This document shows positions 4,185-26,240 of a DNA stretch of 32,421 bases, one piece after another. The notes below the pieces were generated by a model. That model ran no database searches. It had not been told where the DNA came from and worked only from the letters and a program-made list of their open reading frames with translations. The first letter of the stretch is position 1; each line of letters starts with the position of its first letter. The stretch covers positions 1-32,421 of the forward strand of contig CALIHL010000010.1 of assembly GCA_938022935.1 (NCBI GenBank). The letters are read 5' to 3'. A program made the translations under genes and the position numbers. This DNA is from an uncultured Saprospiraceae bacterium. Its GTDB lineage: Bacteria > Bacteroidota > Bacteroidia > Chitinophagales > Saprospiraceae.

Positions 4185-6416
4185 CTATTGCTCACTAGAT
4201 ATCGGCCATTCTTGAAGCTCCTCTTCTGTAAACATCTCTTTTCTATCTGCTGTTTTTACTCTAAGTGCAGCTACATCTTCTTCTTTCATTTTTGACCATG
4301 TTGCATCAGTAGTGAATCCATTCTTGATGTATGCTATGATATCTATGATGTCTCTATCAGAGATGTCGCTATTATCTTTAATGCCGGGCATAACTGCTGC
4401 TCCTTTATAAACTTCTCCATGGATGGTAAGCGGTCCTTGTAGTCCATGCAGCATGATCAATGCCATATGTTCTGATGGTCCCGCCGTATATTCTGTTTGG
4501 TAGAGTGGTGGTGCCAAGTTTTCTAATCCTTTACCGTCCATGCCATGGCAAGTAGCGCAGTATTGATTATAAATTAGAAAACCTCTGGTTCGATTGTCAG
4601 TCAAGTCATTGTTCCTTATTGTGGCAAGTTGTTTTTTATCATTGACTTTATTGTCTATGGCTTTGGCCAATGTTTCAACCAGTTTGGATTCTTTATTGTT
4701 GGATTGAAACTGTTTCAAATATTGCTCTTCCTTACCATGTAGACTGCTAACAAGAGCATTGGCCATAGCTGAGTTGTCTGCGTATTTTACCCCAAGGGTA
4801 CTCGCCATCTCGTATAGCGTTGTATTAGGTAACTGTCCTATGCTATGCGCTATTTGCAAATGATGATCAAAATCAGAAGAAGCTAATGCTTCCTCGAAGA
4901 TCGGTGTTAAGGTTGCTGATGTATTGTCATTATATAGACTCTTGGCGAGTAGAATAACTTGAGACATCACATCTGGGTTGTTCTTAGAAAGAGCTGCAAG
5001 AAAAGCCGCATCTAAACTACTCATGCCTTTCAAAGTCCATAATGCATGTATCTGTCCTAGTGGGTGTTGTGTGTCTTTTGCAATCTCTTGTATGGATGAT
5101 ACTAAGCTTTTGTCATTGGAAAATACTAATTTTTTCTGCGCTGTGATGCGATGCCAAGCATTGGGAGATTGTAATTTTTCTACCCAATCAGAAAGTGATA
5201 ATCCACTTAGGTCTGGCAGATTTTTAATTGGATTATTACTATCCGATACTCGATATACTCTTCCCCTGTTAGGGATGGTGTCCATCTCTTTTTTAATGAG
5301 TAATTCCTTTAAGTAACTAGTCATGTAAGCTCTATGTTGGATAACTGCTTGTCGCATATCCACAACATATAAAGCGCCGTCAGGCCCATTGTTTAAGTTG
5401 ACAGGACGGAAAGTCTCATCCATAGAAGTTAGAAACTCATAACCTTCGCTGGTCGCCACGGCCTTAGTCTCACCATCGTTGAATTCCATTTTGTAGCGCT
5501 TCACTAAGTTTCCTTCTGGTCCACAAACAAATGCGTTTTGATAAAATTTATCTTGAAACTGGCTGCCCCGGTAAATCTTAGGACTACAAGCAGAAGTGAA
5601 ATCTATAACTCGTCCCAATGAATCAAAAGATCCCTCACCATATCCTCGGTTGATTAAAGTGGGATGCGCAGGATAGAATCGACGCGACTTGCACAAGTTT
5701 TGATTTTCTAATCCCTTGCTACTGAGATAAGGATTGGCATTGGCTTGTTTGGGTTGTACGAGATCTCCGAATATTGGATTGCTATTATTGTTGTAGTACA
5801 ATCGACCCGCATCATCGTTAGAAATGCCCCATTGTCCTCTAGCATAAGTAGCATCTCTTTCCCATTGTCCATCTTTATATCGATAGCGACGGTCTGACTT
5901 AGCACTATAGATCCAGTTATCTAAATTGTAAAGAAGCCCATTTGGTGCATGCTCGATATTGCCACCCAAAGAATAAGTAGAATCTATCAGTTGTCTTTCA
6001 CCAGGTTGGTCATCTACAATTTTAACATACCAAAGGTTAGGTGGCTCGGCGTATAGCAAGCCATCGTGTATTAATTCGATAGCCCTTGGTAAAACCATGT
6101 TGTCTAAGAAGACTGTCTTCTTGTCCATGACCCCATCGCCATCCGTATCTTCTAAGATTGATATTTTCCCATCAGGGATATCCTCGCCAGAGCCATCTAT
6201 GTCACGCATGTAGCCGGGCATCTCTAAAGTCCAGATTCGACCTTTCTCGTCAAACTCAATCTCTACCAAACCTGACAATAATGGTTCAGCAGCTACTCCT
6301 TTTATCTCAAATCCAGGTTCAAGAGTAAACTCGCTTGTTAGGTCTAACGGCTGATCCGAGTTTTGGCAAGCAAAGAATAAGAGCAAGGAAGAAGAAAATA
6401 TGATGAATCGATTCAT
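4185..6416 (-). CDS. Membrane-bound dehydrogenase-like lipoprotein with C-terminal cytochrome c domain
   Basis: The start at 6416 gives MNRFIIFSSSLLLFFACQ, a clean lipoprotein signal peptide with the lipid-receiving Cys at residue 17; an in-frame ATG 36 nt upstream would add a charged, less likely leader. The mature part begins with a beta-propeller-like region typical of the putative membrane-bound dehydrogenase family (GRIWTLEMPGYMRD, LEDTDGDGVMDKKTVFLDNM, NGPDGALYVVDMRQ), then a helical HEAT-like section. A cytochrome c domain follows, with heme motif CATCH (about residues 620-624) and a likely distal Met in AAVMPG. It should sit on the periplasmic or outer face and pass electrons from an oxidised substrate, probably a sugar, to the respiratory chain. 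It is the first gene of the operon with the transporter, oxidoreductase and isomerase. Confidence 0.85.
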   Translation of the reverse strand: MNRFIIFSSSLLLFFACQNSDQPLDLTSEFTLEPGFEIKGVAAEPLLSGLVEIEFDEKGRIWTLEMPGYMRDIDGSGEDIPDGKISILEDTDGDGVMDKKTVFLDNMVLPRAIELIHDGLLYAEPPNLWYVKIVDDQPGERQLIDSTYSLGGNIEHAPNGLLYNLDNWIYSAKSDRRYRYKDGQWERDATYARGQWGISNDDAGRLYYNNNSNPIFGDLVQPKQANANPYLSSKGLENQNLCKSRRFYPAHPTLINRGYGEGSFDSLGRVIDFTSACSPKIYRGSQFQDKFYQNAFVCGPEGNLVKRYKMEFNDGETKAVATSEGYEFLTSMDETFRPVNLNNGPDGALYVVDMRQAVIQHRAYMTSYLKELLIKKEMDTIPNRGRVYRVSDSNNPIKNLPDLSGLSLSDWVEKLQSPNAWHRITAQKKLVFSNDKSLVSSIQEIAKDTQHPLGQIHALWTLKGMSSLDAAFLAALSKNNPDVMSQVILLAKSLYNDNTSATLTPIFEEALASSDFDHHLQIAHSIGQLPNTTLYEMASTLGVKYADNSAMANALVSSLHGKEEQYLKQFQSNNKESKLVETLAKAIDNKVNDKKQLATIRNNDLTDNRTRGFLIYNQYCATCHGMDGKGLENLAPPLYQTEYTAGPSEHMALIMLHGLQGPLTIHGEVYKGAAVMPGIKDNSDISDRDIIDIIAYIKNGFTTDATWSKMKEEDVAALRVKTADRKEMFTEEELQEWPISSEQ

Positions 6417-23987: not shown

Positions 23988-24311
23988 ATGGATAATTGGC
24001 GATTGGATCATTTAAAGGGGTTGTTGAACGAGGATCCCAAGGATGAGTTTGTCCTTTATGCCTTGGCGCAAGAGCATACTAAGCACGAGCAACTAGAGGA
24101 GGCACTTGCTCGCTACAAAGAGTTAAAGAGGCTCAATAGTGATTATGTAGGCATGTACTACCACTTAGCAGCGCTATATATCGAGTTAGAGCAGGATGCG
24201 GAGGCAAAAGCGACATTTGAGCAAGGTATAGAGATCGCAAAGCGACTGGGTGATCAGCATGCTCTAGGAGAGCTGATGAATGCTAAGACTAATTTTGAGC
24301 TGGGGGTATGA
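23988..24311 (+). CDS. Small TPR-repeat protein
   Basis: The 107-residue protein consists of about two to three tetratricopeptide helix pairs: DEFVLYALAQEHTKHEQLEEALARYKELKRLNSDY, then GMYYHLAALYIELEQDAEAKATFEQGIEIAKRLGD. It has no signal peptide, so it is cytoplasmic, and it is probably a protein-protein adaptor. It is transcribed divergently from etfB and ends at an intrinsic terminator (24434-24460), about 120 nt downstream. Nothing in the sequence or the neighbours identifies its partner. Confidence 0.8.
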   Translation: MDNWRLDHLKGLLNEDPKDEFVLYALAQEHTKHEQLEEALARYKELKRLNSDYVGMYYHLAALYIELEQDAEAKATFEQGIEIAKRLGDQHALGELMNAKTNFELGV

Positions 24312-24433
24312 GTGAATTGTTATTTCATGTGCTGATAAGGTGCCAAAAACGAACTAAGTAACACTAAATGAGTTGCTTTAATGATTAGGTTAGTCTACCT
24401 TTAAGACAAATATGCTTGCCATGCCTCTCCCTG

Positions 24434-24460
24434 AAGCACACTTTGGTGGGCTTTTTTTTT
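24434..24460 (+). terminator. Intrinsic terminator directly before the Abi-type gene
   Basis: AGCACAC (24435-24441) and GTGGGCT (24446-24452) pair at six of seven positions around a TTTG loop, followed by nine consecutive Ts (24452-24460). It would end transcription of the small TPR gene. The next gene's ATG follows at 24464. Confidence 0.7.
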
Positions 24461-24463
24461 GCT

Positions 24464-25360
24464 ATGAAGTATCAAAAGCCGCCATTAAGTATTAATAATC
24501 AAATAGTTAGACTCAAATCAAAGGGGTTGACAATTCATGAATTAGCAAAAGCCAAATCAACCTTAAGAACGGTTAATTACTATAGGTTAAGCTCCTATTT
24601 TATTCCGTTTTACAAGATAAGGACGAGTAAGTTTCGGAAGAACACCACATTTCAACAGATCTCAGAGCTGTACGATTTTGATAATCAACTTAGGTGGATT
24701 CTATTTGGAGCAATACAGAAAATTGAGATAGGGATTCGAGCACAACTTATAAATGAGTATTCAAACAGTTATGGCTCACATTGGTTTTCCCAAGTCAACT
24801 TGTTCAAAGACTTCAACGACTTTTCTTCATTTCAATCAAAAGCATATAAAATAATTGCTGATAATAGAAACAAAGAAAAGTTTATTAGTCACTACATGGC
24901 GAAGTATAATGATCCACCAATTCCTGCTAATTGGATGATTGTCGAGCTACTCACTTTTGGCCAAATGTCCAGACTTTATAAATCCTTAAGGGATGACAGG
25001 ACTAAAAAAGACATAGCAACTAAATTTGGAGTAACAGAAAAAGTCTTAGAATCTTGGTTACACAACCTTAATTATATTAGAAATATCACGGCTCATCACA
25101 TTAGATTGTGGAATCGAGATCTGAGAATAACACCAATGAACCCAAGGAGGATCAGATATCAATTTTTAAACTCAAGAGGTGCTTCTTCTCATCAAAAGCT
25201 ATACTTCACTCTTTCGGTAATAATATACCTTCTGAAAAGATTTGATCCTAATTGTAATATTGCAAGGCAAATACTGGATTTGTTTGGGAACACAACATCT
25301 ACAATTACAAACCAAATGGGATTTCCTCAGAATTACAAAATAGAACCGTTATGGAATTAA
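24464..25360 (+). CDS. Abi_2 family abortive-infection-type protein with HEPN motif
   Basis: From the ATG at 24464 the protein has 298 residues and begins MKYQKPPLSINNQIVRLKSKGL, the usual opening of Abi_2 (AbiD/AbiF-like) proteins. A TTG 48 nt upstream is in frame but would put the terminator hairpin inside the gene, so I reject it. Family segments include NYYRLSSYFIPFY, LYDFDNQLRWILFGAIQKIEIGIRAQL and NWMIVELLTFGQMSRLYKSL, then the HEPN-type RNase motif R-x4-H in IRNITAHHIRLWNRDL. Relatives act as phage-defence toxins, probably cutting RNA after infection. It is solitary, with no antitoxin or methylase neighbour, and appears richer in A+T than flanking genes, which suggests acquisition. Confidence 0.88.
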   Translation: MKYQKPPLSINNQIVRLKSKGLTIHELAKAKSTLRTVNYYRLSSYFIPFYKIRTSKFRKNTTFQQISELYDFDNQLRWILFGAIQKIEIGIRAQLINEYSNSYGSHWFSQVNLFKDFNDFSSFQSKAYKIIADNRNKEKFISHYMAKYNDPPIPANWMIVELLTFGQMSRLYKSLRDDRTKKDIATKFGVTEKVLESWLHNLNYIRNITAHHIRLWNRDLRITPMNPRRIRYQFLNSRGASSHQKLYFTLSVIIYLLKRFDPNCNIARQILDLFGNTTSTITNQMGFPQNYKIEPLWN

Positions 25361-25392
25361 ACTCATATTGCTAAGGCCATATATTGTAAGCA

Positions 25393-25435
25393 TCTCTCTT
25401 TGTGTTTCAGAGAGAATACCGATAAATACTCGGTA
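25393..25435. terminator. Two tandem hairpins in a convergent gap
   Basis: TCTCTCT (25393-25399) pairs with AGAGAGA (25409-25415), and TACCGA (25417-25422) pairs with TCGGTA (25430-25435). Both stems are perfect. They lie between the convergent Abi_2 and dapF stop codons, so a bidirectional end structure is likely, although neither has a T-run. Confidence 0.4.
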
Positions 25436-25451
25436 ATTCGACATGATGATC

Positions 25452-26240
25452 CTATAATCCTACAGAAAAAACTCCCTCATACACATAAGTAGCTGGCCCA
25501 ATCAACCAGATATTCTGATAATTACTACCGTTTTTCTCGAACGAAACTTTGAGCAGCCCACCTTTGGTCTTGATATTCACTTGATCTGAGATGCCTTTGA
25601 CATGCTCTGCTAATGATAGTGCAGAAGCGACAACGCCAGTTCCACAAGAGAAGGTTTCATCTTCTACACCGCGTTCATAAGTGCGGACTTGTAAGATATC
25701 ATCTTGCCATTCTACAAGGTTGACATTGATGCCATTAGCTTTATAAGTGTCATTGTATCTCACTGTTCGTCCTTGATCAACCATATCCAATGAGGCGATA
25801 TCATCAGCAAATCGTACATAATGTGGGGAGCCGGTATCTAAGACATATGCAGATGCATCTTTATTGATCACAGAGACATCATTCATCTTTAGAGCCACAG
25901 ATCCATCTTTTTCGACTCTTGCTTTATGGATACCATCGATCGCGTCAAATGTGCAAGAACCCTTGAAAATGCCCAGTTTAGCTGCCAGACTGACGATACA
26001 TCGACCGCCATTGCCACACATAGAGCTGGTCCTCCCGTCAGCATTGAAGTAGATCATCTCAAAGTCCGTCTCATTAGATGGTTCGATCAACATCAAGCCA
26101 TCCGCTCCGATGCCAAATCTTCGATCACACATCCGTTCTATCAGAGCTTGGTTGGACGCTTCGACATACTTTTTGATCCTTTGATCGATGATCACAAAGT
26201 CGTTACCAGTACCTTGATATTTAAAGAATGGGATCTTCAT
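25452..26240 (-). CDS. dapF: Diaminopimelate epimerase
   Basis: The enzyme interconverts LL- and meso-diaminopimelate for lysine and peptidoglycan synthesis, in the cytoplasm and without a cofactor. From the ATG at 26240 the protein has 262 residues and begins MKIPFFKYQGTGNDFVIID, the standard DapF opening; an in-frame start 30 nt upstream would add residues the family lacks. Both catalytic Cys motifs are present: SSMCGNGGRC in the first half and ETFSCGTGVVASAL in the second. DRRFGIGADGLM and GSPHYVRF are also conserved. It is convergent with the Abi_2 gene and divergent from the nucleotide-sugar operon. Confidence 0.96.
   Translation of the reverse strand: MKIPFFKYQGTGNDFVIIDQRIKKYVEASNQALIERMCDRRFGIGADGLMLIEPSNETDFEMIYFNADGRTSSMCGNGGRCIVSLAAKLGIFKGSCTFDAIDGIHKARVEKDGSVALKMNDVSVINKDASAYVLDTGSPHYVRFADDIASLDMVDQGRTVRYNDTYKANGINVNLVEWQDDILQVRTYERGVEDETFSCGTGVVASALSLAEHVKGISDQVNIKTKGGLLKVSFEKNGSNYQNIWLIGPATYVYEGVFSVGL

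Follow-up and report, generated by a model that had tools for sequence, protein, structure and literature searches.

The region from 24373 to 25360 of the window (the whole stretch of 32,421 nucleotides analysed here, from an uncultured Saprospiraceae bacterium) in all likelihood forms a complete AbiF toxin-antitoxin module of a type III-like kind, in which a small RNA would act as the antitoxin and a protein as the toxin. The hairpin immediately before the Abi_2 gene most probably represents the small antitoxin RNA of this toxin, an abiF RNA, and not a stray terminator. The analysis establishes the anatomy of this system: the RNA, the promoter box, the toxin fold and their linkage across species. 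The combination of an AbiF toxin with an abiF-type RNA belongs to an already known kind of module, and the type III-like order of RNA antitoxin, terminator and toxin gene is legible in the sequence. If the hairpin is the antitoxin of the module, the odd spacing of this locus becomes the normal layout of the known AbiF/abiF RNA pairs, and a gene jammed behind a terminator can be read as a recognisable signature of AbiF modules.

Anatomy of the locus

A direct reading of the sequence gives the order ...GGTGGGC, TTTTTTTTT (24452-24460), GCT and ATG (24464), which confirms the initial annotation in its observation of a hairpin with nine T directly before the start codon. The features of the module are the following:

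24373..24375, plus strand: TTG, putative -33-like promoter element, 23 nt before the -7 box
24396..24403, plus strand: TACCTTTA, putative -7 promoter box (5/6 positions of the consensus TAnnTTTG)
24408..24460, plus strand: predicted abiF antitoxin RNA of about 50 nt with predicted ends (match of the covariance model R1, described below, at 24412-24460)
24415..24451, plus strand: abiF motif (sub-threshold RF03085 match; pair counts on the alignment of relatives), with a loop of 11 nt and a 3' bulge of 6 nt, CACUUU
24415-24420 with 24445-24450, plus strand: outer helix of the abiF motif
24422-24424 with 24436-24438, plus strand: inner helix of the abiF motif
24452..24460, plus strand: nine-T run, terminator of the RNA (from the sequence and from the T-runs of other loci)
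24464..25360, plus strand: abiF (Abi_2 family) toxin gene, 298 aa (PF07751, PADLOC AbiD, 8vz6 fold)
25079..25096, plus strand: codons of the HEPN RNase motif R206-N-I-T-A-H211 (alignment of 17 proteins, PbAbiF)

The Abi_2 frame at 24464-25360 comprises 298 aa and the stop codon, and its ATG is common to the two nearest homologues (MKYNK...); an in-frame TTG at 24416 falls within the hairpin. The gene is flanked by a TPR gene (23988-24311) and by a convergent dapF, and the GC content of the module is 34% versus roughly 38-43% in its surroundings, which makes a horizontal origin plausible. A repeat search over 24280-25480, in which a target-site duplication was considered, found no direct repeat flanking the module. 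Homologues are present in phage (79) and plasmid (409) records, all of them below 60% identity, and none is close enough to name a source of the module. A mir-2944 match on the minus strand within the ORF (19.6 bits versus 56) was dismissed as chance.

The same genome carries a second Abi_2 system (L002, G000:C139), whose protein is 35% identical and whose RNA loop is different, located between an ffh-like gene (recognised by eye) on one side and a sigma-70 family gene on the other. Near the closest homologue, a Flavo-1 RNA (RF01705, 46.3 bits) maps to positions 4965-5053 of the minus strand of locus L067.

The predicted toxin protein

The assignment of the gene to the Abi_2/HEPN defence kind, already made from the sequence by the initial annotation, is borne out by profile searches. 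The Abi_2 domain covers most of the protein (PF07751, 8.9e-52, residues 33-217, profile positions 2-184 of 184), and the PADLOC AbiD model matches residues 2-292 (5.2e-70). The structure predicted for the 298-aa protein (mean pLDDT 90.9) has a single clear match among solved structures, the PbAbiF dimer with its ncRNA (8vz6; TM 0.90, Z 28.6, rmsd 2.5 over 292 residues), to which it is also related by sequence (E 8.6e-52, 33% identity). The remaining rows of the structure search (Foldseek E 1.6 or worse; VIA-align Z 4.2 or less) were left uninterpreted. The HEPN RNase motif R-N-x3-H of the dimer groove is present, its R206 and H211 being invariant in the 17 aligned proteins, that of the window included, and aligning with R210 and H215 of PbAbiF. 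By analogy with PbAbiF and AbiFCd, the protein would be expected to be a toxic RNase.

An abiF-type RNA upstream of the gene

The abiF motif was reportedly described by Weinberg in 2017. Its Rfam model, RF03085, aligns end to end at 24415-24451 with 23.3 bits, below the gathering score of 37, and this is its sole match up to E 10 in the genome (150 of the 1760 first-look candidates were scored). The same gathering score is reached by only 4 of the 38 Abi_2 loci examined here and missed by the other 34. Since the Rfam threshold misses most of these loci, the name abiF-type RNA is based here on a second model, R1, and not on the Rfam score.

Leaders were extracted from the 38 Abi_2 loci, and a script searching for a stem, an inner helix and a T-run found all three in every locus except L006. 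An alignment of 29 rows (A1, 27 of them distinct), from which the window and its two nearest relatives were left out, contains nine pairs, seven of which vary at both positions; 98.4% of the cells are paired, as compared with a mean of 87.4 in 3'-shuffled controls and 18-44% in slid ones, counts that lean towards structure because the stem-finding script rewarded pairing. The covariance model R1, built from A1 and thus from Abi_2 leaders of other species, gives the window a score of 40.4 bits (genome-wide E 2.6e-6), with a match at 24412-24460 on the same strand as the Abi_2 gene that starts directly downstream at 24464. It also recovers the left-out, dissimilar loci L067, L068, L057 and L069 at 37-44 bits. 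Within the genome of the window, R1 finds just two matches at E<=0.1, which lie 4 and 22 nt before its two Abi_2 matches. Altogether, 37/38 of the Abi_2 loci examined have an R1 match, and the one exception, again L006 (G051:C1:38230-39084), is one of the observations that count against the module reading, along with the sub-threshold Rfam score, the unremarkable folding of the RNA alone, the imperfect -7 box and those Abi_2 matches of the phylum that have no close R1 match (see below).

The stem is followed, within 0-7 nt, by a run of at least four T in all 36 loci measured. In the window, an internal loop breaks the stem, the outer part of which includes three G-U pairs, and a simple terminator scan does not list the hairpin at 24415-24460. 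Taken alone, the hairpin RNA has no clear fold advantage over shuffled sequences (z -0.97; 33/200 as good), and no support comes from the fold of the entire intergenic region either (z 0.76). That the hairpin is more than chance follows from the comparative evidence, that is, the pair changes, the R1 matches and its presence in 37/38 loci. No tandem repeats were detected in 24200-24600, the RNA consisting of one motif only. A Cas13-like guide function was also considered, and that interval holds no repeat array. A competing hairpin, AAGC...GCTT, near 24433-24454 is absent from the 40 lowest suboptimal folds printed, and, judged by eye, its pairing is not general beyond the nearest relatives of the window.

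The initial annotation missed that its terminator hairpin is very probably an abiF RNA and the likely antitoxin. One could still regard it as a cis-acting attenuator, comparable to a riboswitch, that limits transcription of the gene while the RNA itself does not bind the toxin. A stem with a U-run directly before the gene would suit such a role, and the RNA leader of the C. difficile system acts also at the level of termination (available text of PMC12373285). In spite of this, the conservation extends beyond the needs of a terminator, to the inner helix, invariant C and G columns and the 3' bulge, and in both relatives studied the RNA binds the protein (available texts of PMC12373285 and PMC12737573), so that a role restricted to attenuation seems very improbable.

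Promoter and spacing

As the initial annotation observed, there is no room for a promoter between the hairpin and the ATG, where one was rejected because only 13 nt are available; upstream of the hairpin, on the other hand, there is a promoter-like pair at 24373-24403. This predicted pair, TTG-N20-TACCTTTA, is of the Bacteroidota type, in which, according to the portions of PMC6847099 and PMC9723704 available, TAnnTTTG is the -7 box, placed at -12 to -5. Taking the box at these positions, transcription would start at about 24408. This pair is the candidate for the promoter of the antitoxin. The box of the window differs from the consensus by one change, the missing final G. An exact TAnnTTTG is found 18-20 nt before the stem in all 11 other RNA loci of the same class, and a TTG occurs 22-23 nt upstream of the box in 8/12 same-class loci, a set that includes L067 and L068, the class of which was taken from record titles only. 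Over all 37 loci there are 12 exact boxes (six positions tested), versus a mean of 0.19 and a maximum of 2 after Markov resampling, and sliding the test window gives 0-2 exact boxes. Several loci outside the class carry a sigma-70-like pair at the same place (for example, TTGACA-17-TACATT in L041 and L051).

The distance from the end of the stem to the ATG is 13 nt in the window, 11 in L068 and 14 in L067, and ranges from 7 to 101 nt (median 22) over the 37 loci, some of which have a second hairpin between the RNA and the gene. The last 18 nt before the start hold no Shine-Dalgarno-like match in 34/37 loci, an absence that the literature, in the parts available, describes as usual in Bacteroidota.

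The TPR-dapF site in relatives

A different explanation for the arrangement is that the hairpin is a mere intrinsic terminator of the TPR gene, behind which the Abi_2 gene was inserted by chance. The nine T that end the hairpin, the location of the module between TPR and dapF and its GC content, lower than that of the surroundings, would all fit this scenario. Its consequences can be compared with ten relatives in which TPR and dapF were both found as convergent neighbours. The site is empty in nine of them, with an intergenic distance of -22 to 147 nt, as compared with 183 nt in the tenth, L009, which keeps a decayed RNA without toxin, and 1140 nt in the window. Four of the nine empty sites have overlapping stop codons, which leaves no space for a terminator. 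Among 29 TPR loci, R1 gives no match below E 1 except for the L009 relic (18.3 bits, E 0.038), whereas the same RNA precedes 37/38 Abi_2 loci in other neighbourhoods. An origin of the hairpin as the TPR terminator is thus extremely improbable and largely refuted. As the RNA goes with the toxin while the site is either empty or occupied by a relic in the relatives, the terminator belongs to the module.

The proposal of the initial annotation that the gene is a recent insertion at a terminator is not supported either, since the RNA accompanies 37/38 Abi_2 loci and has been kept, with the toxin gone, in the nearest congener; at the nine other TPR-dapF sites R1 finds no such RNA. As for the conservation of the gene here in all relatives, which that annotation had named as an observation that would count against it, none of the five congeners searched has an Abi_2 match.

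The nearest congener, L009, belongs to the same genus (etfB 96% and TPR 92% identical). Its relic, at 1356-1402 of the minus strand (G001), conserves the leader, including the promoter region, up to ATGAAGTATCAA, and the toxin is missing after its first four codons. In the RNA, the G of GCA, invariant in A1, has been lost and the T-run is broken; this G is intact in the window. No Abi_2 match was found in the L009 genome, which is only 76% complete. The simplest reading of these sequences, from one genome, would be a gain of the module before the split of the two species, followed by loss of the toxin and decay of the RNA in one of them. This sister genome offers a natural snapshot that fits a loss of the toxin and a subsequent decay of the antitoxin.

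A clear relic in the nearest congener raises the question of whether the module of the window is itself decaying, with a gene or an RNA that has lost its function, like the module of the sister species. The -7 box without its final G and the three G-U pairs of the outer stem could be read in this way. Yet the ORF has its full length and its invariant residues, the invariant G missing from the relic is present, and its two closest homologues, which are 59% and 56% identical, share the RNA class and the spacing of 11-14 nt in other neighbourhoods, all of which makes a decaying module improbable.

abiF-type RNAs without an Abi_2 gene

A search of 395 genomes of the phylum with R1 (E<=1e-4, stricter filters) yielded 75 matches, in 43 cases with an Abi_2 match no more than 134 nt downstream. 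Conversely, 13 of the 56 Abi_2 matches in the phylum, several of which are fragments, have no close R1 match up to E 1e-4. The other 32 R1 matches have no Abi_2 match behind them. Of these, 27 have no Abi_2 sequence in the retrieved DNA, which extends up to 1.5 kb; a C-terminal Abi_2 remnant follows one further RNA, two others are additional copies located ahead of intact systems, and in the last two, which a contig end cuts, an Abi_2 start is visible (in one case recognised by eye). In L054 (830-881) and L055 (840-891), the intact system is preceded at a distance of about 570-580 nt by a second abiF RNA, which has no toxin gene immediately after it.

Neighbouring genes were read for 19 of these 32 orphan RNAs and for L155, and in 9 of the resulting 20 cases, which were picked after being seen, the next downstream gene on the same strand is of a defence kind. 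These nine comprise type III methyltransferases (L153, and L152 and L165 by the likeness of their first residues), HsdR, DarT, an AbiLi-like ATPase, a PLD-SNF2 helicase, IetA and a DUF4062-NACHT protein.

Several of these loci deserve a description of their own. In L132 / L146 (G110:C23:124539-124590, minus strand), an abiF-type RNA with a second motif in tandem, seen by eye, precedes HsdR; the genome, whose completeness is given as 100%, has no PF07751 match. The RNA of L141 / L147 (G339:C53:24690-24753, minus strand) has an extended loop in addition to a TATATTTG box and is found 42-52 nt before the DarT of a DarTG pair. Near-identical abiF-type RNAs precede type III methyltransferase genes or fragments in L133 (called by profile) and in L134, L135, L144 and L145 (called by likeness), and the RNAs of L126, L125, L128 and L140 lie upstream of the AbiLi-like ATPase, the PLD-SNF2 helicase, IetA and the DUF4062-NACHT protein. 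In L084 (1501-1551, minus strand, G037:C4), an abiF-type RNA with a TATCTTTG box and a T-run is followed by a frame of 164 aa, which has no Pfam match above cut-off; this genome has two other Abi_2 loci.

One conceivable, though rather unlikely, interpretation is that the abiF RNA constitutes a portable leader, made of promoter, antitoxin and terminator, that has been captured by other defence operons. If so, captured leaders might hold down the expression of these operons or protect them from an AbiF encoded elsewhere. More plainly, the orphan RNAs may be relics left in defence islands after loss of the toxin. As a control, 6/10 genes before orphan RNAs match PADLOC models at 1e-5, as do 3/10 further downstream neighbours, so that a defence-island background may explain the neighbours of the orphans. 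No report of abiF RNAs before defence genes other than Abi_2 was found in the open PMC literature, in the parts of it available.

Proposed mechanism and comparison with known systems

The working of the module would start with transcription from near 24408, driven by the promoter at 24373-24403. Most transcripts would terminate in the U-run that follows the stem of the RNA itself, as shown for the C. difficile relative, giving rise to an abundant RNA of about 50 nt. This single-motif RNA would bind the AbiF HEPN dimer and block its RNase site, as shown in print for relatives. Occasional readthrough would produce abiF mRNA and thereby a little toxin, and in the leader of this mRNA the antitoxin hairpin would still be present, 13 nt upstream of the start codon. 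Folded or with toxin bound, the hairpin may in addition impede the ribosome, which would provide a feedback. The suggestion of the initial annotation that expression depends on readthrough, keeping the toxin low, is in this respect probably right. Under a shutdown of host transcription, for example by a phage, the unstable RNA would be lost first, as judged from type III systems, and the toxin would then cleave RNA and stop growth.

The closest known counterpart is PbAbiF-AbiFr of a Prevotellaceae bacterium (PDB 8vz6; Zilberzwige-Tal et al., as cited in the available parts of PMC12373285 and PMC12737573), in which one RNA is bound per monomer (PMC12737573, available part). The full-length fold, the HEPN R/H pair and 33% identity are shared, whereas the species is another one and the RNA of the window has its own loop and inner-helix letters.

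The system of C. difficile prophage phi027 is also similar in having an abiF RNA, RCd22, upstream of an Abi_2 gene with the HEPN motif. According to the available text of PMC12373285, RCd22 and abiF are under one promoter, most transcripts end before the gene and readthrough makes the toxin, a scheme that would apply to the window as well. RCd22 binds AbiF directly and thereby neutralises it, both in cis and in trans (same text), and direct binding of RNA and toxin is in print for both RCd22 and AbiFr (PMC12373285, PMC12737573, parts available). RCd22 combines two abiF motifs with a terminator of its own, separate from them, and a ribosome binding site, whereas the only motif of the window itself provides the terminator, through its stem and U-run, 13 nt before the ATG. 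By comparison, this single motif, with its own stem and U-run, would serve as antitoxin and terminator at once, a simplification with respect to RCd22. AbiF is a proposed ancestor of Cas13 (PMC12165695 and PMC12737573, as far as available), and small one-motif AbiF-RNA pairs would therefore be useful for the question of the origin of Cas13.

AbiD, AbiD1 and AbiF of Lactococcus lactis share the Abi_2 family and the PADLOC AbiD model with the protein of the window, but they are plasmid systems of a Gram-positive organism (PMC12373285, available text). Finally, ToxIN, CptIN and TenpIN are, in the sources at hand, alike in their order of RNA antitoxin, terminator and toxin gene, with readthrough setting the ratio, and they differ in the toxin fold and in their tandem-repeat antitoxins, absent in the window. 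As its antitoxin lacks tandem repeats, the module is best said to work like type III systems, without being filed as a classical type III member.
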